A DNA stretch of 21,414 bases from positions 1-21,414 of IMG/VR virus record IMGVR_UViG_3300042887_001327; one strand, 5' to 3'. Numbering within the stretch: the stretch's first letter is position 1; every line of letters begins with the position of its first letter. The notes below the pieces were generated by a model. That model searched no databases and had not been told where the DNA came from. It was given only the letters and a program-made list of their open reading frames with translations. The position numbers and the translations under genes are program-made. Positions 3,060 to 8,293 of this stretch are shown here, piece by piece. The DNA comes from a virus.

Positions 3060-5549
3060 TCACCATACCTCGCCCCCAACGTCCACAACCCCCATTGCCT
3101 TGCTCAGCGGCACGGCCAGATAGCGGCCAGTGGACAGCCGTTTTTTGAGCCCACCGTTCAACTTCAGCACCGCCGCACCCGCCAAACTGGTGTCCCTTTT
3201 ACTGGGGCTCCTCACGTCCAGCCACCTCAGAATCTCTGAGGCGCTCATCCATTTACACCGCGTTTCGCTAAAATCCGCCCACGCCAAGCCGTCCGTTATG
3301 AGCTCCACAATCGGGTCGGACTGCTCAAACTGGTTGTTATGCACGCTCACCTCGCCCATCTCCGACTGGCTAAGGTAGTGCACCTCGCCAGCCTTCCAGA
3401 GCGCCAGCACCTCCGCCCAGAGCTGCTGCATGTCGATCGAGTGGTCGTGCACGACAGCACTCACCGGGATCACCCAGAAGCGACTGTTGCCCGTGGGGTC
3501 ACCCAAGAACGTCTCGTCGTTCACCGAGGCCGCGAACACCGTGCGCCGGGCGTAGCGCGAAGACGCCGCGGCATAGGGCCTGCGTATCTCGTCCACCGTC
3601 TGGGTGAGGAAGGCCTTGAGCGCCGCGATGTCGCTCTTCTTAAACGTCGCATCAAGCTCACCCAGCTCAGCCAACCAGCCCGAGAGCACGTTCATGAGCG
3701 AGTCCTTGTCGTGCACGTTCAGGCTCTTGCCGGTGTTGACTAGGTTCAAGTTCGCCGGCACAAGCGAAGTCAGCCACCGGGTCTTGCCGATGTACTGCGC
3801 GCCTTGGAGCACCAGCACGCCACGCGCCATCACCCCGTCGGGCGAGTAGGCCGCGGCAATCGCCGAGAGCGCCCACTTGCGCATGAGCAGCTCCTTGCGC
3901 CCGCGCTCGATGGCCTCGGTCACCTCCACCAGCGTGTCGTACCAGCTCTGCAGCCGGCTCACACCGTCCCATGGCTTGCTACTCACCCACTCGACCACCG
4001 GGTTGTAGACGTTCATGTCGGCGATCGTGGTGACGATGCTCTTCAGGTACTGCGTCCTGATCTCGGCCTTGTGGCACATCGAGCGGATCACCGTGAGCGA
4101 GGCCTCGGCCGCGTTGTCCATCGTCCAGCCCGCACCGGGCACGAGGATCTCGTCGTGCTTGTTGATGCAGTTGTAGCGCACGACTATCCCCGCGTTCTGG
4201 CAGACCGCTGCCACGTTCTCAATCGTCTGCTGGGGCGCGCCCTCGGCGTTCATGTCAGGCAGCGCCACCTGCGCACGCCGTGGGCGCATCATGCGCCGGA
4301 TGTCGGCAACTGGCATGTTCGCCCCCAGCTCAATAAAGCGACGCCTGAGCGCCTGCACGAGCGCGGCCTGCTCAACCTGCCCAACGTCCAAACCGATCTC
4401 TGCCGTGAGCGCCTCCAAATCTGTTAATGCGGCCGCCGCGATGCGCTCCGACCAACTGGCGACGGCCGCTGTCTTTTCCGCGGCAATTTCTGGCAGGCCC
4501 TCGCACATCCTGATCATGGCCAGCTGCGAGGGGTGTGACTGTATCTGGACCAGATCGAGCGGGTCAGCGCCCTCATCGAGGTGGCCGAACTTGTGCACGC
4601 GCACCAGATCAAAGACGTTGACCGCGCGCCCCAGACACGGGTCGGTCGCGTGCTTGTTGACCACGTGCATACGGTCGTCGCTGATAAAGGCACCACCCAC
4701 TGAGCCGCCACCGGCCTTGTAGGTGAGCCGGCGCTCGTTGTCATCCATCTGGAAGCGGAACTTATCCGACAGCCAGCGCACGATCACCTCCTCGACACTG
4801 AAAGCACGACAGAACGCGCCCACCACGCCGGGCTTCTCACGCGGGTCGCTCATGGCGTAAGACGACGAGCCCTCGTACTCGGGCACCATCACGGACGACA
4901 CGTCAATGCCTACCGAGTCGAACCAGCCAGACGACATACCCGAGCGAGCCTCAACGGGGTCAGTCACGCCAGCCTCGAACACAGGGGCGGCTGTGTAGTG
5001 CGCCTGCACGGGGTTAAAGACCGAGTGATCAAGGCCTGCGATGCCGATACCCCACGCACGCAGCTGAGCGCTCGTGCGAGGCTCGGCCAACCAGAACCAC
5101 ACGTGTGCCTTGAGTACGCCGGGTGTGCGCCCTGCAGACGACGAGAGCTGCCACCAGTAGCGCACACCAGCGAACGCAGGCAGCGTGGCCTCGATCCACG
5201 CGTCGATCGCCTCCTCAGGTGCGCCACCATGCTCGAAGTTATCAACGTCAAACATAACCGCGTGCAGCGGCTGATCGGTGAAGTTAACCAGCGCACGTCG
5301 CACGTACCCCGGGTACTCCGAGGGCTCAGCGAGCTCGTCACCCACGTAAGCCCCGCGTATCAGGCACACGTCGGGTTTACCCTCAATCCTCTTGAGCATC
5401 GCGCCGAGCTCGTCTAAACTTGCGACCTGCTCGCGGCGCATCTTAAAGTGCTTGGCGTCCTCGTAGCCATCGATCGTACCGTCTTGTTTCCATAACTTGG
5501 TCATCCTGCGACCGTTCATCGTTTTAAGCAACGTTATCGTGTCTGTCAT
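3060..5549 (-). CDS. primase-polymerase (AEP) fused to VapE-type SF3-like helicase
   Basis: 829 residues with two enzymatic halves. The N-terminal half looks like an archaeo-eukaryotic primase: FDVD at 100-103 (metal-binding D101, D103), the HVWF strand with His149, and LDHS with Asp174. The C-terminal half is a virulence-associated-E-like P-loop ATPase: WDGVSRLQ near 527, Walker A GAQYIGKT at 583-590, an acidic Walker B stretch LAELGELD near 627-633, and NSRFWVIPV near 688-696 with the arginine finger. Such fusions prime and unwind DNA at phage replication forks. Start ATG at 5549 lies one base after the HTH gene stop, with AAGG inside the last HTH codons, so translation is probably coupled. 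The TGA stop lies within the last GTGACAT iteron. Confidence 0.92.
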   Translation of the reverse strand: MTDTITLLKTMNGRRMTKLWKQDGTIDGYEDAKHFKMRREQVASLDELGAMLKRIEGKPDVCLIRGAYVGDELAEPSEYPGYVRRALVNFTDQPLHAVMFDVDNFEHGGAPEEAIDAWIEATLPAFAGVRYWWQLSSSAGRTPGVLKAHVWFWLAEPRTSAQLRAWGIGIAGLDHSVFNPVQAHYTAAPVFEAGVTDPVEARSGMSSGWFDSVGIDVSSVMVPEYEGSSSYAMSDPREKPGVVGAFCRAFSVEEVIVRWLSDKFRFQMDDNERRLTYKAGGGSVGGAFISDDRMHVVNKHATDPCLGRAVNVFDLVRVHKFGHLDEGADPLDLVQIQSHPSQLAMIRMCEGLPEIAAEKTAAVASWSERIAAAALTDLEALTAEIGLDVGQVEQAALVQALRRRFIELGANMPVADIRRMMRPRRAQVALPDMNAEGAPQQTIENVAAVCQNAGIVVRYNCINKHDEILVPGAGWTMDNAAEASLTVIRSMCHKAEIRTQYLKSIVTTIADMNVYNPVVEWVSSKPWDGVSRLQSWYDTLVEVTEAIERGRKELLMRKWALSAIAAAYSPDGVMARGVLVLQGAQYIGKTRWLTSLVPANLNLVNTGKSLNVHDKDSLMNVLSGWLAELGELDATFKKSDIAALKAFLTQTVDEIRRPYAAASSRYARRTVFAASVNDETFLGDPTGNSRFWVIPVSAVVHDHSIDMQQLWAEVLALWKAGEVHYLSQSEMGEVSVHNNQFEQSDPIVELITDGLAWADFSETRCKWMSASEILRWLDVRSPSKRDTSLAGAAVLKLNGGLKKRLSTGRYLAVPLSKAMGVVDVGGEVW

Positions 5550-7838: not shown

Positions 7839-7878
7839 AGTCATTACAGGTCGCCGGGCACCTGAACCCAAAGCCCGG

Positions 7879-7993
7879 CACCAACACGCATGGGGATTGC
7901 TGGCTGACGAGCAGCATCAGACTGAGTCCAAAGGGCTGTGACAAGGCCAGCCACAGTTTGATGTATAAAAGGCAGTCCCTAGCCGTGTTGGTG
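7879..7993 (+). repeat. structured unit 1
   Basis: Outer stem CACCAACACG/CGTGTTGGTG, an internal loop CAT (7889-7891) against AGC (7981-7983), then inner stem GGGGATTGC/GCAGTCCCT, closing 71 bases that include a third stem TGGCTG/CAGCCA. A 7-bp hairpin with a 13-base loop lies directly 5'. The 5' arm, internal loops and 3' arm are nearly identical to unit 2, while the enclosed sequence is unrelated and longer. Confidence 0.7.
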
Positions 7994-8091
7994 TCAAGTG
8001 TTAGCGACTTGATTGTGTGCTTGAAAAAAGCTTGCAGCTCCTTAAACCCTGCTTTATGGGAAACACAACATGACACCTCGGAAAGACGAGG

Positions 8092-8176
8092 ACCAACACG
8101 CATGAGGATTGCCGTAACCACAGAGCAGCAAGTCGCAAGACCCTATGCCCGAATAGCAGTCCTCAGCCGTGTTGGT
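8092..8176 (+). repeat. structured unit 2
   Basis: Same architecture as unit 1: outer stem ACCAACACG/CGTGTTGGT, internal loop CAT (8101-8103) against AGC (8165-8167), inner stem GAGGATTGC/GCAGTCCTC. It encloses 43 bases containing a short GTC-GCAA-GAC hairpin with a GNRA-type loop. The pair 8105-8163 is A-T where unit 1 has G-C (7893-7979), and 8104-8164 is G-C where unit 1 has G-T. A CCTCG-GAAAGA-CGAGG hairpin lies directly 5', the counterpart of the hairpin before unit 1. Confidence 0.7.
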
Positions 8177-8293
8177 ATGTGAAAGCAGATGCTGTGGTGA
8201 TGGGTAGCGCCCAGCAGCCATTCTAGATAGTCGCTGAGAACAGCTTGCCACGGTGCAGCGAGTAGTATGCCAACAACTAAAACGGAGAACACG

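Follow-up and report, generated by a model that had tools for sequence, protein, structure and literature searches.

The array and its units in the window

In a viral record of 21,414 nt (IMG/VR record IMGVR_UViG_3300042887_001327; this whole stretch is referred to as the window), the gap from the gene of an Enc34-type ssDNA-binding protein (SSB) to the DNA polymerase gene is filled by an array of structured RNA elements at positions 7839–8293 (455 nt; Table 1). The preliminary description reported two copies of a 5′ arm and of a complementary 3′ arm, and both lie exactly where it placed them, the 5′ arm ACCAACACGCATG(G/A)GGATTGC at 7880–7900 and 8092–8112 and the 3′ arm at 7972–7992 and 8156–8176. 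With up to three mismatches allowed, the 5′ arm pattern matches the window three times, as the two exact copies and, on the reverse strand, the image of the second 3′ arm, against a chance expectation of 0.01 matches. Folding compared with shuffles confirmed that the two copies share an outer stem, internal loop and inner stem: the fold z-scores are −5.46 for unit 1 and −6.51 for unit 2, with 0 of 200 shuffles as good, and −4.3 for all 455 nt of the array region. The sequence differences between the copies also hold as first described, namely the compensatory change of G-C at 7893–7979 versus A-T at 8105–8163, the change of G·T at 7892–7980 versus G-C at 8104–8164, and the lengths of the enclosed sequences. 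Within the CAT/AGC loop an extra U-A pair is possible (7891–7981; 8103–8165), after which a 2 × 2 loop remains (A·G and C·C/U).

The conserved element is wider than first noted, since 7993–8077 and 8171–8274 are further modules. The hairpins reported directly before the two copies both exist (7853–7859/7873–7879 and 8076–8080/8087–8091), but of the two the second alone recurs as a module, its GGAAAGAC loop being found with covarying stems at ∼15 loci among the matches listed. The hairpin pair of the linker between the units (GUUAGCG / CUGCUUUAUG) recurs at 21 of 124 loci, on 20 different stems (matches listed). The downstream module is of the type GAAAGCRGAUGCUG...GCAGCGAGUA and is found both in relatives of the window (L001, L004, L005, L010 and L011) and at other sites (L002, L024, L048 and L072); its closing stem is formed by 8171–8179/8266–8274, and strand 8171–8176 is common to this stem and the outer stem of unit 2.

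Table 1. Coordinates of the array features in the window and of features in related loci
Feature	Position	Strand	Basis or remark
Hairpin 5′ of unit 1 (GCCGGGC...GCCCGGC)	7853–7879	+	sequence; retained in L001, L004, L005, L010, L011
RNA unit 1	7880–7992	+	position and folding; R1 score 56.8 bits (unit in R1 training alignment)
Unit 1, outer stem	7880–7888/7984–7992	+	followed by CAT/AGC internal loop
Unit 1, inner stem	7892–7900/7972–7980	+	interior 71 nt
Linker module	7990–8077	+	same hairpin pair at other loci
Linker hairpin CAAGU-GUUAGCG-ACUUG	7995–8011	+	
Linker hairpin CCC-UGCUUUAU-GGG	8047–8060	+	
Linker, possible closing stem GGUGUCA/UGACACC	7990–7996/8071–8077	+	
GGAAAGAC hairpin (CCUCGGAAAGACGAGG), directly 5′ of unit 2	8076–8091	+	recurring module
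RNA unit 2	8092–8176	+	position and folding; R1 score 65.4 bits (unit in R1 training alignment)
Unit 2, outer stem	8092–8100/8168–8176	+	followed by internal loop
Unit 2, inner stem	8104–8112/8156–8164	+	interior 43 nt
Downstream module GUUGGUAUG..GAAAGCAGAUGCUG....GUGCAGCGAGUA..UAUGCCAAC	8171–8274	+	same module in relatives and elsewhere
Proteo-phage-1 RNA in phage PS-1	L143:964–1043		5′ of unit and module D
tmRNA-like segment, P1	L141:573		
tmRNA-like segment, HK620	L142:986		
tmRNA-like segment, IME11	L145:1009		
tmRNA-like segments, further loci	L146:854; L139:1274; L138:1283; L149:3052; L150:3060		

Searches for known RNA families

No Rfam family reaches its gathering threshold in the window, which supports the initial judgement that the element is not a tRNA, tmRNA, known ribozyme or riboswitch. 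At E ≤ 10 the Rfam search, which had been suggested as a check, returned evident chance matches only, and the weak matches to Flavi_TBFV_SL6 (E 0.004) and SorX were rejected as unrelated. ARAGORN called 0 tRNA or tmRNA genes in the window, and a T-arm is present in neither of its units. The STnc100 model (RF02076) was unmatched in the window at gathering threshold or E ≤ 10, as was the Proteo-phage-1 model (RF03044) in the window and in 29 freshwater loci. Searches by blastn with the window region and the array of locus L008 gave no matches in phage records and nothing relevant in plasmids. The unit family has no match in Rfam 15, though phage structured RNA is otherwise a known kind. We found no earlier description of such arrays in the open-licence literature; closed journals or supplements may mention them.

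A phage RNA family with a conserved fold

Scanning IMG/VR with the exact 5′ arm identified 11 contigs, and scanning with the 3′ arm identified at least 120 viral contigs. Together the matches comprise at least 154 distinct complete units in at least 124 sequences, nearly all of them viral contigs, with the consensus ACCAACACG-CAU-G(G/A)GGAUUG, interior, CAGUCC(C/U)C-AGC-CGUGUUGGU. Since the search pattern fixed most of the 3′ arm, the invariance of that arm is partly imposed. Among the matches listed, units are 60–144 nt long with a hypervariable interior, and they occur singly at 93 sites, in twos at 27 and in threes at 4, joined by other recurring folded modules.

The fold of these units is under selection as RNA. 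Across 69 aligned units, 99.3% of the cells in the inner stem (helix 2) are paired, 41 cells of the structure carry double-sided changes compared with 10.2 in shuffles, and the covariation score is 0.201 compared with 0.127 after shuffling. Shifting the partner by one column in the same alignment reduced pairing from 95% to 38–49%. This strong covariation in 69–154 relatives supports the original proposals of a conserved functional RNA and of a phage ncRNA. The preliminary description expected the arms of homologous phages to keep their pairing as they mutate, and this holds for the inner stem, but the outer stem is often broken: among the matches listed, base pairs 7–9 are almost invariant, while roughly every second unit has a mismatch at base pair 4, 5 or 6, a breakage that had not been foreseen. 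The sixth base pair of the inner stem is a T·G wobble in 137 of 154 units (matches listed; CG in 11, TA in 6), and the covariance model R1 scored unit 2 at 65.4 bits on the + strand versus 37.8 on the other strand. The kept wobble and the higher + strand scores indicate that the element is an RNA rather than a DNA palindrome. The family is thus well supported, while its function has to be inferred.

R1 describes the freshwater unit as a 17-bp two-helix frame with the CAU/AGC loop. Outside its training set it matched L267 (47.2 bits) and L268 (37.0 bits), genomes of the order to which L133 belongs (Burkholderiales). Units are rare in cells, since R1 matches only 3 of the 399 genomes searched in this order. 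In accordance with this, the exact 5′ arm has 5 matches in 257 Gb of cellular contigs, and the only one with a full unit is L133, a short contig of a Burkholderiales MAG; for this reason we rejected, at the level of the 5′ arm, mimicry of a conserved host RNA or CRISPR repeat. One contig with units of the new family, L009, also bears an int-alpA RNA (RF02996) at 5460–5534 (−).

Gene neighbourhoods and turnover

Outside the window the arrays lie beside many other genes, among them RusA- or DUF968-like nucleases and terminases upstream and terminase small subunits or a dps-like regulator downstream. Among the matches listed, 111 upstream neighbours fall into 72 gene clusters and 119 downstream neighbours into 70. 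The array and the gene downstream of it point in the same direction in 89 of 119 cases (p = 6e-8), promoter-like sites (at least 10 of 12 positions) stand upstream of 18 of 111 arrays compared with 3.4 in shuffles, and an intrinsic terminator follows within 250 nt in 7 of 113. At L002, L015, L032, L064 and L066, the last codons of the DUF968-like gene hold a near-consensus −35/−10 promoter that points into the array.

Relatives of the window reveal turnover at the same SSB–polymerase site. L001, L010 and L011 have one unit that joins the leader of unit 1 to the interior of unit 2, as recombination between the arms would be expected to give. L004 and L005 retain unit 1 and differ in unit 2, the inner stem of which is swapped on both sides (GGCUGGAUAUUCC/GGAAUAUCCAGCC). 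The polymerase gene stays in these relatives while the units change. The varied neighbours, together with the loss and replacement of units at one site of conserved synteny, argue against a dedicated polymerase switch, and control of polymerase translation, one of the roles first considered, is not supported as a general role.

A strand common to two helices

The 3′ strand of the unit's outer stem, GUUGGU, usually serves also as the 5′ strand of the stem that closes the following module (GUUGGU...ACCAAC), and where this strand is common to both helices, they cannot both form fully at once. Among the matches listed, 95 of 152 downstream linkers close with an ACCAAC strand (pairing with GUUGGU and at least one further base), and in 73 of these 95 the closing strand is followed by A.

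Module D (GUGAAUGCGCAGGCUGAUGCGC ... GCCGGAGAUCAGCACCGGCCAC) provides an independent test of the shared strand because it is present in many phages with other stems. It has two hairpins with complementary loops (GCUGA:UCAGC; ACUGA:UCAGU in two relatives). The number of linkers with 5 such loop–loop pairs is 12, compared with 0.4 in shuffles, and since the loops are complementary beyond shuffles, a loop–loop (kissing) contact is likely. Resemblance to the L002 copy was found in 137 phage records, and further copies in IMG/VR. The closing stem of module D covaries strongly, with 22 different stems (matches listed). Of 79 module D copies outside the GTTGGTG lineage, 20 are preceded by a strand that is complementary to the shared middle strand over 8 nt or more, whereas permuted strands gave 1.4 expected and a maximum of 4 in 200 permutations. 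The upstream strands of these 20 copies comprise 9 different sequences; the three strands change together. The module is found at L002:1774–1911 and in ∼100 further copies in viral loci and known phages, with a topology like that of STnc100.

The two pairing states differ by a median of 0.5 kcal/mol, with 84 of 94 within 5, although these near-equal energies are partly built in because selection required both helices to share six pairs. About three quarters of module D copies and ∼40% of freshwater linkers have no detected partner strand, so that the coupling of outer stem and closing stem is common, not universal. The occurrence of the same layout in other phages, with other sequences in the three strands, indicates that there is probably competition between the outer stem and the stem that closes the module after it. 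This three-strand array layout appears to be undescribed. That a perfect outer stem goes with the lack of a downstream partner was not supported, as 27 of 59 units lacking a partner are mismatch-free at base pairs 2–6 compared with 39 of 94 with a partner.

Similar arrays in known phages

Phages of Pseudomonas and enterobacteria have the layout as well, with each of the three strands differing in sequence. Among known phages, it lies between Q and the lysis genes in HK620 and in E. coli prophages, and within tRNA regions in P1, Aeromonas ST4 and Pseudomonas ZC03. Rfam matches in these regions are tRNAs, Proteo-phage-1 (in PS-1) and STnc100, the last just under its threshold. R1 gave no match to the enteric unit (ACAACAGGTAAGAGCAUU..AGUGCUCUUUCCGUUGUG) in L138–L150, and since the model does not detect them, our claim for the enteric units extends to the layout and not to homology.

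STnc100 is likewise phage-borne and structured; its models match array modules of P1, Magnus and ST4 at sub-threshold scores, and it resembles module D in its closing stem UGGUG..CACCA, two hairpins and variable middle. However, the framing unit is absent from the STnc100 model, the window has no match to it, and the sRNAs of this type that have been described are stand-alone genes and not parts of an array. Proteo-phage-1, another RNA of proteobacterial phages, stands 5′ of a unit and module D pair in Pseudomonas phage PS-1, but as a neighbouring module and not as the new unit.

Likeness to tRNA takes several forms: in some interiors or linkers a T-arm adjoins an acceptor-like stem, most closing stems are 7–8 bp long with an A after them, and the arrays of P1, ST4 and ZC03 lie among tRNA genes. 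In contrast to tRNAs, most units have no T-arm, and no CCA is encoded. T-arm-like hairpins occur in 4 of 154 units and 2 of 95 linkers among the matches listed, and with a T-arm beside the inner stem in so few units we rejected tRNA mimic as a label for all units. The linkers of L083, L100, L056, L120, L126 and L113 contain degenerate tRNA-like modules, which show features of a D-loop and a T-loop and an acceptor-like stem GUUGGUG/CACCAAC and are not called by ARAGORN.

Proposed function and alternatives

Starting from the observed fold and its covariation, the distribution, the modularity, the strand common to two helices and the turnover, we tentatively propose that the locus may encode a co-transcribed array of exchangeable structured RNAs that act in trans on translation or RNA-binding machinery. 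The array would be transcribed on the + strand, with the operon or from its own promoter, and the units would first fold as hairpins. The downstream strand would then compete for GUUGGU, such that the array either switches between two pairings or folds in order through them, and the array could be released as a stable small RNA. Directed in trans at the translation or RNA-binding machinery of the host, its modules may serve as mimics or decoys, as suggested by the minority of tRNA-like modules, by arrays within tRNA clusters and by STnc100-like modules elsewhere; tRNA-like features are absent from the window array and are a minority feature of the family. Interiors are exchanged fast, which is compatible with an interaction subject to arms-race selection. 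A broader reading, which we consider doubtful, is that proteobacterial phages carry an unrecognised modular class of RNA, in which the outer strand of each unit would pass to the next closing stem and the whole array would fold by ordered exchange. Swapped as cassettes, and some with tRNA-, STnc100- or tmRNA-like features, such modules would be mimics or decoys of host translation or RNA processing, possibly against tRNA-directed defence.

A folded RNA could instead act in cis, as a leader controlling translation, mRNA stability or transcription of the downstream gene or operon, for example through processing between SSB and polymerase or through read-through at the start of a late operon. The predominance of co-directional downstream genes (89 of 119 arrays), the frequent position just before terminase genes, the location between Q and lysis genes in HK620 and E. 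coli prophages and the few arrays with their own terminator (7 of 113) are all in accordance with a leader. However, the neighbours are as diverse as DNA polymerase, terminase, a dps-like protein, HNH and tRNA genes, 30 arrays are not co-directional, the relatives of the window retain the gene pair and change the RNA, and no conserved relation to a ribosome-binding site is seen; overall we regard a cis-acting leader as somewhat unlikely. Base-pairing sRNAs of the STnc100/PasD type, in which the interiors would be seeds against host or phage mRNAs and the frame would serve stability and processing, seem quite unlikely to us. The interiors are themselves structured and often paired, and the units lack a terminator or Hfq-type tail, even though array modules of P1, Magnus and ST4 match STnc100 below threshold and STnc100 and its relative PasD are established prophage sRNAs that differ in their seeds (PMC13192938).

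Cassette-like turnover at one site and inverted repeats between replication genes could also be explained by a DNA-level element, that is, a site for recombination, cassette exchange or replication whose DNA folds into a cruciform or as a single strand. Integron attC sites offer a superficial likeness in their folded arms, unpaired spacer, hypervariable middle and cassette-like turnover. The R boxes of attC sites read RYYYAAC / GTTRRRY, and by inspection the ACCAAC/GTTGGT outer boxes seem not to fit them. The conserved T·G wobble and the G-C/A-T/G-T exchanges suit RNA rather than DNA, and with the strand bias relative to the next gene and the excess of upstream promoter-like sequences over shuffles, they make a DNA element very improbable. 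That the units are decayed tRNA-like or mobile repeats without function, left by chance or as selfish remnants, would agree with the high turnover of units and interiors and with the variable copy number, but it is hardly credible for an inner stem that stays paired, with compensatory changes, across divergent units and for a conserved internal loop.

Structured noncoding regions of phages are mostly blank in annotation, and here one conserved frame connects more than 100 environmental phage sequences. The three-strand layout reaches P1, HK620 and many phages of Klebsiella, Escherichia and Pseudomonas, which are tractable laboratory systems, and the spread and conservation of the RNA family make its function worth testing, for which P1 and HK620 offer a direct route. 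Were the modules released as stable RNAs, they would form a large reservoir of exchangeable phage RNAs, and were the shared strand a switch, the RNA architecture would be an unusual one.

tmRNA-like segments in enteric phage arrays

Several enteric phage and prophage arrays share with tmRNA and permuted tmRNA (RF00023, RF04321) a tag-coding segment, but the Rfam scores of these segments are below threshold. Near the freshwater arrays we found no convincing tag reading frame and one doubtful match, in L051. The enteric segments (Table 1) are unannotated, read UAAAUGCAAACGA(U/A)GA.. and encode the tags ANDDLMMVAA, ANEEMYLAVA or ANDDVVLMAA; upstream, pseudoknot-like complementary segments seem to covary (CUUUG/CAAAG, ACUUU/AAAGU, UUAUG/CAUAA). 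Judged from sequence, the segment is possibly an overlooked phage tmRNA or a tmRNA mimic. DNA similar to it is present in 793 phage records. In phage IME11, 2 kb without annotated genes (L145:150–2270) hold dense hairpins, tRNAs and array modules.
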